From positions 1,188,001-1,252,000 of the forward strand of contig NZ_LR134378.1 in assembly GCF_900637555.1 (NCBI RefSeq): a stretch of 64,000 bases of DNA. Reading direction: 5' to 3'. Every line of letters begins with the position of its first letter. Within the stretch, counting starts at the first letter, position 1. The stretch is from Lautropia mirabilis (GTDB taxonomy: Bacteria; Pseudomonadota; Gammaproteobacteria; Burkholderiales; Burkholderiaceae_E). The notes below the pieces were generated by a model. That model ran no database searches. It saw only the letters and a program-made list of their open reading frames with translations, and was not told the origin of the DNA. Positions 1-7,912 of this stretch are shown here, piece after piece. Made by a program: the position numbers and the translations under genes.

Positions 1-2288
1 GTGCCGTCCACGACCGGCTTGCCTTCCAGGGTCAGCGGGGCCTTGTAGTTCTCGATCTCGATGACGAAGCGGCTCAGCTTCTCGCCGGAGAAATCGTAGG
101 CCTTGTAGCCCTTGGGCAGGTCGGTGCCATTGCCGTTGCGGATGATGGCGTCAGCGTTGGCGACGGCACCTGCGGTGCTGTCCTTGCCCAGCCAGGCGCC
201 GTTCTTGGCAAGCTGTCCGTTCAGGACATCCTGTTGCGCAGCCTTGGCAGTGTCACCCTTAGCTTCAGCAACGCTTTCATCGCTGTCATACTCGCCCAGC
301 GAGCCGAACAGCTTCTGGCCAATGAACTGGGCTTCTTCGGCGCTGTCGATGGTCAGCAGCTTGCCGCCGCGTACCTTGGCCATTTCTTCGGCCTGAGCGC
401 GGGTGATGGGCTCTTTGGTGCTGATGACCTCGTAGGCGGTGGTGGACACGGTCTTGACCGGAGCAGGGGCATCCGGAGCCTTGCCGGTGACCTTGCTGGT
501 GGTCTCGACCTCGCGGAAGATGCGCGTGCCAGCCTCACCTTCGGACGTGTCGACCCTGACGATCTTGATGAACTCGACGTTCTTGCCTTCGCCAGCCGCC
601 TTCTCGAACGCGGTGGCGACGTTGGCCAGCTTGGTCTCGCCGTTGGCGGCAACCTGCGGTGCCTCAGCCGTACCTTGAGCCGTGGCCGGCAGTTCCTGCT
701 TGGCAGGCTGCTGGTCGCTGTTCTGGGTGTCCTGGCCGGTCTTGTCAGCTTGCGGGACGTCGTTGGCGGGTTTGACCTCCGTGCCGCCCTGCGCCGGCTT
801 GTCCTGGGCGCTCGGATTGGCCGGCGTGGTCATCGGGTGCTTGACGTCGGCCGATTCGGACAGCGCCATCGTGCCTTCCTTGGCGTCGGCGACGGGCTTG
901 GCCGTGGCGGCATCATTGCTGTCGACGGCCTGATAGGTGATCTTGCCGGCCTTGTTCAGGTCGGCGTTCCAGGCCAGCTTGGCGGCGTCGGCCTTGTTGA
1001 TGATCTGGCCTTCGACCACGGGCTTGCCGTCCAGCAGCAGCGGCGACTTGTAGCCTTCATATTCGATGACGAACTTGCTGAGCGTGGTGCCTGCAGCTTC
1101 GTAGAGCTTCATGGCACCAGAGCCGTCTGCGTTGTTGCCGTTGCGGATGACGGCGTTGGCCTTGGCATCGGCGCCCTCAGTGGCGTTCTTGCCCAGCCAG
1201 GCACCGTTGGAAGCCAGTTGGCCATCCAGGACTTTCTGTTGAGCAGCCTTGTCGCTTTCACCTCTTGCTGCTGCTTCGGCAAGGGACTTGTCGCCGTCAT
1301 ACTCACCCAGGGCGCCGAACAGATTCTTGTCCAGCCAGGCCTTTTCTTCGGCGGTGTCGATGGACATCAGCTTGCCGCCCAGCTTGGCGGCCATCGTCTG
1401 GGCTTCTGCCAGAGTGATGGGCTTGCCAGCGTCGATGACTTCATAGGCACGGCTGTTGTCGCTGTCGACGGCACGAGCTTCAGCGTCCTTGGCGTTTTCG
1501 GCGCTGAGGATGCGGCTGATCTTGATGTACTCAGCTTTGCCACCATTGGCACCAGCGGTCTCGAAGAGGTCAGCAAACTTGGTCAGGTTGGTGACACCAT
1601 CCGCGGCAACCTTCGGTTCTGCCGCAGTGCCTGCAGCCGTGGCGGGCTTGGTGAGATCCTCGACCGGGGTGGGGTCAACCTTGGGCTGATCGGCCGGTTT
1701 CGAATCGGCCTGCTTGGCAGGCTCTTCTTCCTTGGCCGGTTCGGTAGGCTTGGCACCTTCGGCAGGCTTGTTGGTGCCTTCGGCCGGCTTGGTGTCCTGG
1801 GCAGGCTGCTCGGCGGCCGGGGTAGCTGGCTTCTGGCTGCCCTGGTTCTGAGCGGCTTGCTGGTTGTTGTTCTGGGCGATCGGCTGGCTGCTGGAGCCAC
1901 CGCTGCTGCCACCGCCGGCTGCGGCGGCCACGGCAACAACGCCCACCACGCCGGCACCAATGGCCAGCGGGCTGATGGCGGCGGCGGTACCGGCGGCGCC
2001 TGCGGCACCGGCTTCGGCAACCGCAGCTTCACCGCTCACTGCGCCCAGCGAGCCTTCGGCAGCAGCGGCTGCGTCGGCGGTGGCCACGCTCCCTTCAGCG
2101 GTGGTCTCTGCCACCACTTCCTTCACGGCTTCGGCCTGTTTGGCCTGGGCCATCTTGTCCAGCTCTGCCTTGTCAGCAGCCTGCTTGGCCATCTTGGCGG
2201 CGTCAGCGGCGGGTGCCTGGGCGGCCTGGCGTGCAGCGGCGCTGCCTTGGGTGGGCTGGGGTTTTGTCGTGCGGTTCTGAGTTGCCAT
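1..2288 (-). CDS. Giant repetitive surface protein with lectin-like modules (3' end outside window)
   Basis: The reading frame starts at the ATG at 2288 and stays open to base 1, giving 762 visible residues; the C-terminus is missing. It opens with MATQN, then a long Ala-rich charged segment (about 10-100), a hydrophobic stretch (about 104-125, ISPLAIGAGVVGVVAVAAA) and GGGSSGGS, then a Pro/Lys/Glu/Gln-rich linker. Two copies of a 337-residue unit follow (period 1011 bp; the AYEVI codons lie at 1434-1448 and 423-437). Each unit has a cadherin-like beta-sandwich into which a C-type-lectin-like domain is inserted (AYEVI...GGKL(M/L)(S/T)ID..EE...GAWLG...(K/R)FVIE, about residues 278-414 and 614-759). 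No Sec signal is seen. A secreted or surface-anchored adhesin is inferred; the ligand is unknown. The paralogue at 2808-6131 lies immediately upstream on the same strand. Confidence 0.8.
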   Translation of the reverse strand, partial: MATQNRTTKPQPTQGSAAARQAAQAPAADAAKMAKQAADKAELDKMAQAKQAEAVKEVVAETTAEGSVATADAAAAAEGSLGAVSGEAAVAEAGAAGAAGTAAAISPLAIGAGVVGVVAVAAAAGGGSSGGSSSQPIAQNNNQQAAQNQGSQKPATPAAEQPAQDTKPAEGTNKPAEGAKPTEPAKEEEPAKQADSKPADQPKVDPTPVEDLTKPATAAGTAAEPKVAADGVTNLTKFADLFETAGANGGKAEYIKISRILSAENAKDAEARAVDSDNSRAYEVIDAGKPITLAEAQTMAAKLGGKLMSIDTAEEKAWLDKNLFGALGEYDGDKSLAEAAARGESDKAAQQKVLDGQLASNGAWLGKNATEGADAKANAVIRNGNNADGSGAMKLYEAAGTTLSKFVIEYEGYKSPLLLDGKPVVEGQIINKADAAKLAWNADLNKAGKITYQAVDSNDAATAKPVADAKEGTMALSESADVKHPMTTPANPSAQDKPAQGGTEVKPANDVPQADKTGQDTQNSDQQPAKQELPATAQGTAEAPQVAANGETKLANVATAFEKAAGEGKNVEFIKIVRVDTSEGEAGTRIFREVETTSKVTGKAPDAPAPVKTVSTTAYEVISTKEPITRAQAEEMAKVRGGKLLTIDSAEEAQFIGQKLFGSLGEYDSDESVAEAKGDTAKAAQQDVLNGQLAKNGAWLGKDSTAGAVANADAIIRNGNGTDLPKGYKAYDFSGEKLSRFVIEIENYKAPLTLEGKPVVDG

Positions 2289-2649
2289 ATCGATCTACGA
2301 ACGTTGAAAGTCTCACGATGAACGTTGGCCGCGGCAGTTGCCTGGAAGGTCAGGTGCCCCGGCCTGGGACAAGCGCGCGAAGGCGGTGAGACAACCGTGG
2401 GCCCGTTCAGTTCCGGAAAGGGGGTGGTTGCCAGATGTCACAAGGTGCGCTTTGTCTCATCTTGGCAAGGTCTTGAGGGCACCGCTTGGCTTTGGGTTCG
2501 AGCGGTCGATTGGGGCTGCCCGGCGTGAAACCGGGGGTGTCTGTCCCCAGTCACGCCTGCCGTTCGTGCCCTGATTTCGTCCGTTTGTTCGCAGGCTTAT
2601 GGACAGGGCTGAGTGACGGACGAAAGGCCGCTGTCCGTGATCGGGCGGG

Positions 2650-2696
2650 AAAAAAGAAGGCGGAATGGCCCGAACGCACAAGGCGACCATTCCGCC
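2650..2696 (-). terminator. Rho-independent terminator after the second surface-protein gene
   Basis: Read on the minus strand, a perfect 10-bp stem (GGCGGAATGG at 2687-2696 pairing with CCATTCCGCC at 2659-2668) has an 18-nt loop and is followed by TTCTTTTTT (the A-run at 2650-2655 on plus). It sits about 110 nt past the stop codon of the 2808-6131 gene, so it probably ends that transcript and separates it from the downstream paralogue. Confidence 0.7.
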
Positions 2697-2702
2697 AGAG
2701 GC

Positions 2703-2739
2703 CCTTCCCGCCGAAGGCGCACGACCTTCAGCGGGAAGG
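2703..2739. other. Long hairpin in the spacer between the surface-protein genes
   Basis: CCTTCCCGCCGAAGG (2703-2717) and CCTTCAGCGGGAAGG (2725-2739) pair over 15 bp with one mismatch and a 7-nt loop. No T-run follows on either strand. It lies between the terminator at 2650-2696 and the hairpin at 2740-2773. It may protect the mRNA 3' end of the upstream gene or be a genome-wide intergenic repeat. Confidence 0.6.
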
Positions 2740-2773
2740 TGCTGCCGGGTTGCAACCCATGGACCCGGCAGCA
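2740..2773. other. Perfect 11-bp hairpin adjoining the preceding one
   Basis: TGCTGCCGGGT (2740-2750) and ACCCGGCAGCA (2763-2773) are exact reverse complements around a 12-nt loop. It begins at the base directly after the 2703-2739 hairpin and 35 nt from the stop codon of the 2808-6131 gene. Confidence 0.6.
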
Positions 2774-2807
2774 TGACTGCAAGATGCGTGCGCGTTGCGC
2801 GCCTGCA

Positions 2808-5800
2808 TCAGACCATCGGCACCTCGTGCAGCGGGTCGATCAGGTTCGACACCAGACTGCTGCTGGGGGCGTAGCTGATGTGACCGTTGTCTGCAGTCGG
2901 CGATGCTTCACCGAAGAGTTCTTCGTGGCCCAGCAGGTCCTTGAGCTGCAGGGGCAGGGCTCTCTGACTGGCTTCGGAATGCTGGCCAGTAGCTTCGCCA
3001 TGCGACTCGTTTTTCAGCTGCGGATCCGAGCCTTCCGGAGCAGAGGTCTGAGACACCTTGCCTTCTTGCTGCTGCGTGCCGGAAGTCTCCTGAGTCTTCG
3101 GGCCGCCTTCCTGCGTGGAGGAAGCGCCCTGCGACTGAGAGTTGCCTTCCGACGCTGCCGGCGGGGTCGGAGCATGCTCACCCGACGTCGAGTGGGCCTG
3201 ACCCTGAACCGTGCCTTGCGTCTGACCCTGAGTCTGGCTCTGGGTGCCAGAGGGCTGATTCTGGACCGAGGTCGAATCACTCTGTTGAGGCGTGTCGCTG
3301 TGCGCGCCTTCCGTGCGGCTGACTTCGCCCGTGCCTGCGCTCGGGCCGGAAGGCTGCGAGGCATTTCCTGCTTGCGAGGTGTTCCCAGCCTCCGGAGCAG
3401 GGGTTTGCGGCGACTGGCTGCTGTTCTCCTGCGGGCCGGCTTCGGTGATCTTCACCTCGCGCGACACGGGGTTTGCCGCATCGGCGCCCTGCAAGACATT
3501 GCCCTGTTCATCCACCGGCACGAACTTGAAGGAAGCGCTGCCCTTGAACTGGTTGGCGTCCAGGTAGACGCTGTCAAACTCGGCCATGGTGATGACATCG
3601 TCCTTGGAGACGCTTCGTGCCGCACCGTCGTTGCCGACTTTCAGCACCGGGCCTTCGTAGCCGTCTTCGCCATGGATGTAGAGGATGCGCACACCGGCAG
3701 GCGTGACGCCGTCGACACCCTTGAAGAGGGCGGCATTCAGGTGATGGTTGGCGTTATGGGCGACGTTCACCGTCTTGGCGTCGCTGCCGTAGTTGGGCAG
3801 GTTGGGCGTTTCATGGACGGTGACGGTCTGCAGGGGCGAGCCGGCGATGGGCTGCTTGTGATGATCCAGCGCCTGGAAGGTGAAGGACCCCCCGTTGTTC
3901 TGGGCGGAATCCCAGGCGATGTGCTTGAAGTCCTCGAAGCTGACTTCACTGCCTTCTTTCAGCGGAGTGTAGGCGTCACGGCCCTTGTTGACGAACAGGG
4001 CGGATTCTGCCGAGTTGGAGTCAGCCGTTTCATTGACTTTCCCGATGCGGATGAAGGCCGGTGCGTCGTCGGCAACCATGCCCTTGAAGAGGTCTTCACC
4101 CAGGGTCTGCTTGATGTTCTGACGAACATTGACCGTATGGGCGTCGCCTTCCGGATACTTGGGCGCTGCGGCGGCTTCGTCGATGCTGATGGTTTGGGCC
4201 TGCACCTTGGCGGCGTCGTAGTGAGCGTGGCCTTCTTCGGGGCGCACCGCAATGAAGCGGAATTCACCGCCCTTGGAGGTGCTGGCGTCCCAGCTCAGCT
4301 TCTCGAACTGGTCGGCGGTGATGACCTGATTGGCCTCCACGTTCTGGCCATCCAGTTTCAGCGTGCCCGGCTTGACGTCCAGGATCTTCACGGCACCGGC
4401 CGGGTGATCGGAATCGCTGCCCTTGAAGATGGCGGGGTCAAGCTTGGCGGTCGCGTCGTGGGCCACCTTGACGGGGTGCTGGGCCTGGTACTGGGGCAGG
4501 TGCTCGGCCGGTTGCGGGTCGGCCTTGTGCTCAGTGTCACCCTTGTGCTCGGCGTCACCCTCATGGGCGTCCTTGACCGGCTGCTTGTCGCTGCCCTGGG
4601 TGGCCTGGCCGCCTTGCTGCGCGTTTGCATTCGTTTCGGCCGGGGCAGGCTGCGCCGGCGCCGTGGGCTGCTTCACCTCGGGCGATTCGGTGATGGAGAC
4701 GTTGTGCGGCTGGGTGTTGGGCAGCGGCTTGGCTGTTTTGGGGTCATTGCTGTCCACAGCCTGGAAGCGGATGGCACCGGACTGGCTGTAGGTGGAGTTC
4801 CAGACCAGCTTGTCGAAGTCTTCGGCGTTGATGATCTGGCCTTCCTGCACGGGTTTGCCGTTCAGGGTCAGCGGGGCCTGGTAGTTGTCGTATTCGATGA
4901 CGAAGCGGGACAGTTTGGCTTCGGCGCCCTGGGCGATGGTCTCGGGCTTGTGGCCGGTGTCATCGGTGCCGGTGGTGATCATGGCGTTGCCTTCGTGCAG
5001 CTTGTTGCTGCCGATCCAGGCGGCCTTGCTGTTGTCGTTGTTCTCGCCCTGATGGCCCAGGCCCTGGAGGTTCTCGTTCAGCCAGTCCAGTTCCTTCTGG
5101 TCATCGACGGACAGCAGCTTGCCGCCCAGTTTTTCGGCATGGGCCTTGGCTTCGGCCAGGGTCATCGGGGTCTTGCTTTCGATGACTTCGTAGGCCGTCA
5201 GCACGGTCTTGCCACCTTTGGCAGCATCACCCTGGGCCTGCTGGCCTTCGGCTGGCAGGGCACGGACGGCGAAGGGGCGAACGGCATGGATGCCCTGGAC
5301 ATCGGCGTCATGATCGGCGCTGGGCGTCTGTTTGGGGCCTTCGTCGCCGTAGCGGACGGAGCGTGCGTTGGGGTGTTCGCTTTCAGAGGCCTGGATGTGG
5401 GTGATCTGGACGAACTTGACCGGGGTGTTTTCGCCGGCGGAGTTTTCGAACACCGTCTTCAGGTTGGAGAGCTTCGTCTCACCGGTTTCGGCCACCTTGG
5501 GTGCGCCAGGCTCGCCCTGGGCGACAGCAGGGCCGGTCACGACGGTCTGGACCGGCTTCTGAGGCGCCGGCTGGGCTGCGGGCGGCTTGGCCGGGGTTTC
5601 AGCGGCCGGGGCCTGGACGGCAGGGGATTCGGCGGGGGCTTCTGCCACAGAGGGCTTCTCGGCGGCCGGTGCGGACGGTGCAGCAGGCTGCTGCGTGTCG
5701 GCCGGAACGTTGCTGACGGGCGGTTTCACGGCCAGGGGGGCGCTGGCGGGGCCGTTGCTGCCACCGCTGCTGCCACCACCGGCTGCGGCGGCCACGACGG

Positions 5801-6131
5801 CCAGGCCCAGCACGCCGCCGCCAATGGCCAGCGGGCTGAGTCCGGCAGCGGCCGTGCCGGCGCCGGCTTCGGCAGCCACGCCGCCGGCTGCCGCAGCGTC
5901 GGCGGTCACGGCGCCTTCGGCGCTGGCCATCTGGGCGGGCGCAGCGTTTTCGGCAACGGCCTGGGCGTCGGCGTTGGCCACTTCAGCGGCCTTGTCGGCC
6001 TGGGGCTGGGCCGCCTTGCGGGCGGCCAGCTTGTCCAGCGCATCCATGTCATGCGCCTGGGCGCTGGCGGCGCGGGATGCCGCAGCCTGGGGCTGCGACG
6101 GTTGTTTGGTCATGTTGTTCTGGGTTGCCAT
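2808..6131 (-). CDS. Giant repetitive surface protein with lectin-like and cadherin-like modules
   Basis: This 1107-residue protein starts at ATG 6131 (MATQNN, matching its paralogue); a GTG five codons upstream (6146) is also in frame. Order: Ala-rich segment; hydrophobic stretch plus GGGSSGGS (about residues 108-135); Pro/Ala linker; a beta-sandwich module with an inserted C-type-lectin-like domain (about 309-415: AEKLGGKLLSVDDQKELDWL, AAWIG, FVIEYD); three further sandwich modules without the lectin insert (about 550-893; IFKG or LFKG motifs, then L.(W/L)(D/S)......G.F.F.(A/P)); a Gln/Ser/Thr-rich region (about 895-1045); and a C-terminus containing LPLQLKDLLGHEELFG. Absence of a Sec signal and the LxLxDLL-like C-terminus resemble type I secreted adhesins of proteobacteria, but no transporter is in the window. 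Role in adhesion or biofilm is inferred. Confidence 0.8.
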   Translation of the reverse strand: MATQNNMTKQPSQPQAAASRAASAQAHDMDALDKLAARKAAQPQADKAAEVANADAQAVAENAAPAQMASAEGAVTADAAAAGGVAAEAGAGTAAAGLSPLAIGGGVLGLAVVAAAAGGGSSGGSNGPASAPLAVKPPVSNVPADTQQPAAPSAPAAEKPSVAEAPAESPAVQAPAAETPAKPPAAQPAPQKPVQTVVTGPAVAQGEPGAPKVAETGETKLSNLKTVFENSAGENTPVKFVQITHIQASESEHPNARSVRYGDEGPKQTPSADHDADVQGIHAVRPFAVRALPAEGQQAQGDAAKGGKTVLTAYEVIESKTPMTLAEAKAHAEKLGGKLLSVDDQKELDWLNENLQGLGHQGENNDNSKAAWIGSNKLHEGNAMITTGTDDTGHKPETIAQGAEAKLSRFVIEYDNYQAPLTLNGKPVQEGQIINAEDFDKLVWNSTYSQSGAIRFQAVDSNDPKTAKPLPNTQPHNVSITESPEVKQPTAPAQPAPAETNANAQQGGQATQGSDKQPVKDAHEGDAEHKGDTEHKADPQPAEHLPQYQAQHPVKVAHDATAKLDPAIFKGSDSDHPAGAVKILDVKPGTLKLDGQNVEANQVITADQFEKLSWDASTSKGGEFRFIAVRPEEGHAHYDAAKVQAQTISIDEAAAAPKYPEGDAHTVNVRQNIKQTLGEDLFKGMVADDAPAFIRIGKVNETADSNSAESALFVNKGRDAYTPLKEGSEVSFEDFKHIAWDSAQNNGGSFTFQALDHHKQPIAGSPLQTVTVHETPNLPNYGSDAKTVNVAHNANHHLNAALFKGVDGVTPAGVRILYIHGEDGYEGPVLKVGNDGAARSVSKDDVITMAEFDSVYLDANQFKGSASFKFVPVDEQGNVLQGADAANPVSREVKITEAGPQENSSQSPQTPAPEAGNTSQAGNASQPSGPSAGTGEVSRTEGAHSDTPQQSDSTSVQNQPSGTQSQTQGQTQGTVQGQAHSTSGEHAPTPPAASEGNSQSQGASSTQEGGPKTQETSGTQQQEGKVSQTSAPEGSDPQLKNESHGEATGQHSEASQRALPLQLKDLLGHEELFGEASPTADNGHISYAPSSSLVSNLIDPLHEVPMV

Positions 6132-7344: not shown

Positions 7345-7620
7345 ATGAACACGACACCGGATCTACACTATCAGAATGCCAATTTTCTTAGGGAGCTGGC
7401 CGAAAAGCTTCCCCGGATCAGCCCGGAGGATGGGTGCCCAGAGCATATGCGGCTTCTGCAGAAATTGGCTGATGAGCAGTTGGCAGAGGCACAGCACATC
7501 GACTGGGTACGTGCGAAGGTTGCTGCGGCACGGGACGATACTCGTCCGGATGTTCCGGTTGAGGAGGCAATGACGGAATTCAGGATCCGCATGGAACGGC
7601 TGCACAATGGCAACCTATGA
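7345..7620 (+). CDS. Putative antitoxin of a RelE/ParE-type module
   Basis: A 91-residue, acidic, mostly helical protein with no recognised DNA-binding motif. Its identity rests on context: it overlaps by 14 bp the next gene, which encodes a RelE/ParE-fold toxin, and small acidic partners upstream of such toxins are usually antitoxins. The helical C-terminus (VEEAMTEFRIRMERLHNGNL) would suit wrapping around a toxin. The stretch is visibly more AT-rich than the flanking nitrilase and tldD genes, which suggests acquisition by transfer. It may be co-transcribed from the nitrilase promoter; no separate promoter is obvious. Confidence 0.6.
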   Translation: MNTTPDLHYQNANFLRELAEKLPRISPEDGCPEHMRLLQKLADEQLAEAQHIDWVRAKVAAARDDTRPDVPVEEAMTEFRIRMERLHNGNL

Positions 7621-7912
7621 GGTCAAGTGGAGCAGGGCAGCTCTTGATGATCTGGAGCGTTTTCTTGTTTACCTGCTTGATGAGGTTTCCTTGCAGGAGG
7701 CTCAGGGCATATGCGACAGGATATTTCAATCAACGCTCCTTCTGGAAAAATATCCTCGCTTGTATCAAGAGGTCCCTGAGTACGGGCATGGGGTTCGCCG
7801 AATCATCAAGCTGGGGCGATATGTGCTTTACGAAGTCAATGATGATGATCGGACCTGCAGGGTCCTGGCCGTGGTTGGCCAGGGGCAGAAGCCGAGAGAC
7901 ATGTTTGAATGA
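7607..7912 (+). CDS. RelE/ParE-family toxin
   Basis: A 101-residue protein with the ParE/RelE pattern: YEVKWSRAALDDLERFLVYL at the N-terminus, A..I.D.I.......L..(Y/F)P in the middle, then GVRRIIKLGRYVLYEVNDDDRTCRVLAVV. In this superfamily such proteins either poison gyrase (ParE) or cleave mRNA (RelE); the presence of R..(I/R)..GRYV(L/V)YEV without a clear RelE catalytic set leaves the target open. It overlaps its antitoxin by 14 bp and the tldD frame by 4 bp (ATGA at 7909-7912). Base composition is lower in GC than the neighbours. Confidence 0.8.
   Translation: MATYEVKWSRAALDDLERFLVYLLDEVSLQEAQGICDRIFQSTLLLEKYPRLYQEVPEYGHGVRRIIKLGRYVLYEVNDDDRTCRVLAVVGQGQKPRDMFE

Follow-up and report, generated by a model that had tools for sequence, protein, structure and literature searches.

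Genes for giant proteins with a C-type-lectin-like domain (CTLD) lie at one end of a 64,000-nucleotide stretch of Lautropia mirabilis DNA (the window; bases 1188001-1252000 of the 3.17 Mb single-contig genome), and the question that they raise is how this domain is built into the chain and what it may do there. The initial annotation had described two such genes in tandem; both exist, here called genes A and B, but the tandem consists of three genes, the third of which, gene C, lies just outside the window. As judged from profile alignments and predicted structures, the CTLD is nested within a beta-sandwich module, in one of its hairpins, and the module also exists without it. We consider it probable that the family makes up surface adhesins of one genus, exported by type I secretion, and that their CTLD heads, calcium-independent and variable in one loop, are held by split modules at the ends.

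A census of 46 open frames in eight genomes of the genus counted 239 plain and 41 nested modules after six duplicates were dropped; some of the frames are incomplete because of a contig end, a run of N or a frame break, and the ninth genome of the genus (G005) gave one weak match (1.7e-5) and no census frame. The plain module is a beta-sandwich of about 115 residues with the consensus VAHD....L....F.G.....P..IRI..I.......L.L.....V..G..I...DF..L.WD...N.GG.F.F..LD......G...QT.TV.ESP..PDY and without a Pfam family of its own. When profiles were compared with hhalign, with E-values that apply to one pair and flanks of up to 40 residues excluded, the flank preceding the CTLD matched plain-module columns 1-56 in the 18 contexts with an upstream plain module (E 1.2e-7) and columns 2-107 in the other 23 (E 8.5e-7), where no similarity is visible beyond about column 56. 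The flank following the CTLD matched columns 43-117 and 45-117 (E 1.2e-21 and 1.9e-16), and the same type of comparison gave no match between the plain module and the CTLD itself. A stricter test, with a hidden Markov model on single sequences, found the C-terminal half of the module immediately behind 39 of the 41 CTLDs and the N-terminal half in front of 28, each above the 99% shuffle level. As a cross control, the N-terminal half was found in none of the 41 following flanks; the C-terminal half appeared in 19 of the 41 preceding flanks, which we tentatively ascribe to preceding plain modules.

Structure prediction leads to the same arrangement. The AlphaFold2 model of a plain module (P0006, the gene B protein, 666-789) has a predicted local distance difference test score (pLDDT) of 88.2 and a predicted template modelling score (pTM) of 0.80, and consists of strands 4-10 and 14-16, helix 19-22, strands 33-41, 52-55, 61-63 and 69-71, helix 72-77, and strands 78-81, 87-95 and 108-115. 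In the model of a nested module (P0006 209-494; pLDDT 74.1, pTM 0.71), strand 15-17, helix 21-28 and strand 37-44 are followed by the insert, after which come strands 218-220 and 230-232, helix 233-238, and strands 239-242, 249-256 and 273-279. Except for plain strands 4-10 and 61-63, the elements of the two models correspond one to one, as read from the two secondary-structure strings, and the insert of about 170 residues is therefore predicted to replace the turn between plain strands 33-41 and 52-55. The alignment behind the nested model included plain modules as rows, which may favour agreement of both models. The plain fold matched a CSPG4 repeat (7ml7, 96 residues aligned) and cadherin EC1 (1nci, 90 residues aligned), a likeness between beta-sandwiches of similar size.

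Some of these data speak against nesting. Thirteen of the 41 contexts have an N-terminal half, and two a C-terminal half, that scores below the 99% shuffle level, and the pLDDT of the nested model is only moderate, with residues 62-103 scoring below 50. The N-terminal half of nested modules is short and diverged, and one of the 13 contexts where it was missed is a fragment that retains hardly any flank. The C-terminal half was missed once in a frame that apparently changes reading frame behind the CTLD, and once at a CTLD whose end was not located. Weak N-terminal matches in these 13 contexts would fit a sandwich and a CTLD that simply follow each other as two domains, but both flanks match the two halves of one module by profile and the element order is identical in both models, so that we regard consecutive domains as extremely improbable. 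The initial claim of a lectin-like segment within a repeat also found without it is thus borne out by both the flanks and the models. The features in the window are the following:

3-2288, minus strand: gene A, cut at the window edge, with the N-terminal 762 of 1422 residues inside the window
1896-1976, minus strand: gene A, hydrophobic stretch with a terminal glycine run, seen in the sequence; putative retention or anchor element
834-1634, minus strand: gene A, nested module 1 (split sandwich and CTLD)
1059-1451, minus strand: gene A, CTLD 1, 131 residues
3-680, minus strand: gene A, nested module 2, cut at the window edge
54-440, minus strand: gene A, CTLD 2, 129 residues
2808-6131, minus strand: gene B, complete, 1107 residues from ATG, with one nested and three plain modules
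5760-5840, minus strand: gene B, hydrophobic stretch with a terminal glycine run, likewise read from the sequence; putative function as in gene A
4665-5522, minus strand: gene B, whole CTLD-nested module
5391-5522, minus strand: gene B, split sandwich half 1, up to strand KFVQITHI, by profile alignment and model
4875-5390, minus strand: gene B, insert made up of a connector (partly disordered in the model) and the CTLD, model residues 43-215
4890-5198, minus strand: gene B, CTLD core TAYEVI..FVIEY, Lectin_C 24.8 bits (cut-off 22.6)
4665-4874, minus strand: gene B, split sandwich half 2, by profile alignment and model
4146-4490, minus strand: gene B, plain module 1
3780-4151, minus strand: gene B, plain module 2, the one modelled with pLDDT 88.2
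3426-3791, minus strand: gene B, plain module 3
2811-2885, minus strand: gene B, C-terminal tail with the family L(x)D end motif, candidate secretion signal

The full gene A (L010:2020-6288) encodes 1422 residues, in which two CTLD-nested modules, with CTLD starts 337 residues apart, are followed by three plain modules beyond the window. Gene C is a 2376-residue open frame (L009:8848-15978) in which 13 modules are plain and one is nested. Several of these 13 are nearly identical to one another by eye, which suggests that the gene C stalk expanded recently. Two further family members, without a CTLD, are located at 2.785-2.792 Mb of the same genome. Genes A and B and the proteins of the second cluster have no cysteine; the gene C frame has eight, all of which, by eye, precede the likely start MNTLQ.

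All 50 listed structural matches of the insert are C-type-lectin-like, by title or by family, and cover model residues 43-215 approximately; among them is 3l9j, which we take to be C-type-lectin-like. Sequence-profile matches in the PDB lead to the same family, and the fold first proposed for this segment is supported accordingly. At the sequence level, the gene B CTLD passes the PF00059 (Lectin_C) cut-off when taken alone; whole proteins stay below it (19.6 and 13.2 bits, and 17.6 bits in a relative), and 10 of 40 members reach E <=0.01. The CTLDs are 72-165 residues long and conserve TAYEVI, EA..A...GGKLL.IDD..E..WL and FVIEY, and they vary most in the long-loop region (entropy 2.31 bits versus 1.58 for the core and 1.62 for the C-terminal half, 15 rows; alignment A2 omits one of the 41 CTLDs, L051:5415-5771, whose end was not located).

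Calcium-dependent sugar-binding C-type lectins are typified by EPN or QPD together with WND, and conserved disulfides are optional in bacterial C-type-lectin-like domains. None of the 41 CTLDs contains WND, one has an EPN-like motif, and none has a cysteine. Because of these missing features and the variability of the long loop, we take the CTLD as a calcium-independent recognition head; the carbohydrate binding that the initial annotation assigned to it finds no support.

The position of the heads is equally informative. None of the 41 nested modules is flanked by plain modules on both sides, while shuffles within frames lead to an expectation of 20.0 with a minimum of 10 in 10000. Twelve large frames (1458-2702 residues) have 6-17 plain modules and one C-terminal head, as do two frames with 4 plain modules; seven consist of a head only, 11 of 46 of plain modules only (including a 2130-residue frame with 13 of them), four are capped at both ends (three NPPPPN and one NNPN; N, nested, P, plain), and the others have one or two heads at the N-terminal end. 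On a tree labelled with N-terminal, C-terminal and stand-alone heads, 4 label changes were counted versus 18.1 in shuffles, and head position is therefore largely inherited. Since homologous proteins are not independent, the end rule represents a conserved architecture and not 41 separate events. Some family frames in relatives (L043:811-3483, L047 and L048:17587-19998) are apparently broken or cut, with signs of damage that include a stop inside the nested-module match (G001), runs of N and an apparent frame change after the CTLD.

These counts also argue against calcium-dependent sugar-binding heads repeated along the stalk, a calcium-dependent version of the many-headed fibre first envisaged. 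The CTLD fold and the two adjacent heads of gene A would agree with such a fibre, but the calcium and sugar motifs are practically missing, no head is internal and no frame has more than three, and we strongly disfavour it. It is also unlikely, in our judgement, that the CTLDs are contact devices between fibres, caps that pair mutually or with stalk ends to give oligomers or self-aggregation without foreign partners. Heads at the ends, in four frames at both, are in line with this, as is the trimerization of a CTLD without calcium motif at a fibre end in Bdellovibrio Bd2740 (excerpts of PMC10769870); however, self-contact would favour conservation, whereas it is in the long loop that the heads vary most. 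We likewise doubt that the CTLD is a ligand-free relic or spacer in a split module that merely terminates the stalk. Ten heads, all at C-terminal ends, are only 72-77 residues long and lack most of the long loop, and calcium motifs are missing, which speaks for a relic, but the CTLD core is conserved and seven other heads are still 153-165 residues long, with W.GL and W.W conserved in them.

With recognition by surface adhesins as the preferred reading, each chain would start with an N-terminal part, which in genes A and B includes the hydrophobic glycine-ending stretch, and continue through a linker of low complexity into a stalk of sandwich modules of about 115 residues. At one end of the run, or at both, the module would be split, its hairpin between the strands at about residues 41 and 52 being opened for a CTLD that probably buds out sideways. 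This putative head would recognize, without calcium, a partner that is a protein or a glycan and that probably belongs to host surfaces or to bacteria nearby in the plaque. Export would probably be by an LssB-type type I secretion system whose genes lie elsewhere in the genome, and the chain would remain at the cell with its N-terminus and point outward with its C-terminus.

The genome does encode a TolC-ABC-HlyD group with an LssB-type exporter, and such an exporter occurs in 9/9 genomes of the genus. At L071:7331-12843 (minus strand), genes for HlyD, an LssB-type ABC protein and TolC follow in rising coordinates, a candidate adhesin exporter. L(x)D was found within the last 25 residues of 27/36 chosen frames (shuffled mean 12.5, maximum 24 in 2000 shuffles), a pattern picked after inspecting the C-terminal ends. 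Five own-genome family proteins (gene A as the 762-residue window part) gave no Pfam match to RTX repeats, and none of the family matches from a gene B search of the genome lies near this group of HlyD, LssB-type ABC and TolC genes.

Several observations argue against the proposed adhesins and their export. The exporter is unlinked to the adhesin genes and is also present at E 1e-150 in 13/32 relatives without the family, 11 of them above cut-off, and LapG (PF06035) was not found in the genome by a search whose control was positive in Caulobacter. The strict pattern for a hydrophobic glycine-ending N-terminal stretch matched only 19/48 listed frames, a count that includes duplicates and chance matches besides genes A and B. 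In a motif test on the last 15 residues, the calcium-type linker motif D.[ND] was found in 1/196 plain modules and was missing from the other 195, module ends being frequently proline-rich (ESPAAPDY). The ten shortest heads may be too reduced to bind. In view of these exporter and terminal-pattern results, type I export by the LssB-type system is plausible and unproven.

The family is restricted to Lautropia among the genomes sampled. It is present in 9/41 relatives, all nine of the same genus, and the plain-module profile matched 4/349 genomes of the order, all of the genus, and across the phylum 1/398, the own genome. The nested-module profile matched 5/349 genomes of the order; four belong to the genus, and in the fifth the match covers 54 positions of the CTLD only. 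Only the best first-look candidates per genome were scored (e.g., 13 for the plain-module profile across the order), and absence therefore holds at that depth. The match outside the genus (G328:C1:1635372-1635509, L077) is to the CTLD part (8.3e-7) of a 200-residue open frame, possibly a stand-alone CTLD protein. In the window and in G004, a genome of the same genus (there by eye from translations), the cluster adjoins a carbon-nitrogen hydrolase gene and a TldD-like gene, between which a ParE-type toxin gene (PF05016, 41.2 bits) lies at 7607-7912 (plus strand) of the window.

Lautropia, a genus that lives in the mouth, is reported to be central in cauliflower plaque consortia, ringed by Streptococcus, Haemophilus/Aggregatibacter and Veillonella (scoping review PMC8306857, in excerpt), and among the papers listed for L. 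mirabilis on adhesins, genome and surface proteins, titles and abstract starts mention no such adhesins. It is a speculative idea, which we hold only tentatively, that the family is a genus-specific recognition kit that selects the partners in these consortia through end-capping calcium-independent heads, fast-changing long loops and several paralogues per cell. The family supplies concrete candidate genes and single-domain constructs, and the rule that heads are placed only at ends can be checked in other adhesins.

The closest known plan is that of the split-domain RTX adhesins AhLap of Aeromonas hydrophila, FrhA of Vibrio cholerae and MpIBP of Marinomonas primoryensis (excerpts of PMC12077191 and PMC10865825). 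These share with the Lautropia proteins a long run of beta-sandwich stalk modules, heads towards an end and a ligand-type domain that buds from a sequence-split sandwich, ligand binding by the Lautropia insert being putative. Their heads, as far as these excerpts describe them, are PA14/CBM, peptide-binding, RTX and vWFA domains, whereas the Lautropia head is a CTLD, which would join the kinds of domain known to bud from split stalk modules. Calcium-bearing linkers are reported for RTX adhesin stalks (PMC7493085, in excerpt); the Lautropia proteins, in contrast, have almost no calcium-type linker motif, no Pfam RTX-repeat match and no LapG match. They are therefore split-domain adhesins in plan and are not shown to be RTX adhesins by membership. 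The initial annotation had not recognized the arrangement as a described adhesin class; the split-domain plan is known, and its combination with a CTLD appears to be new within a limited search of the open-access literature.

Adhesins of the intimin and invasin type also carry a CTLD at their tip and have sandwich domains in the stalk. Their CTLD, however, forms a terminal domain of its own behind the preceding one, and their N-terminal part is a barrel, whereas the Lautropia CTLD is nested. Intimin_C is treated in an excerpt of PMC8286594. The tip of the Bdellovibrio MAT fibre, Bd2740, shares a CTLD without calcium motif at a fibre end; that fibre is trimeric, and the excerpts of its description mention no split sandwich. 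Bd2740 shows that a CTLD of this kind can serve at the end of a fibre.
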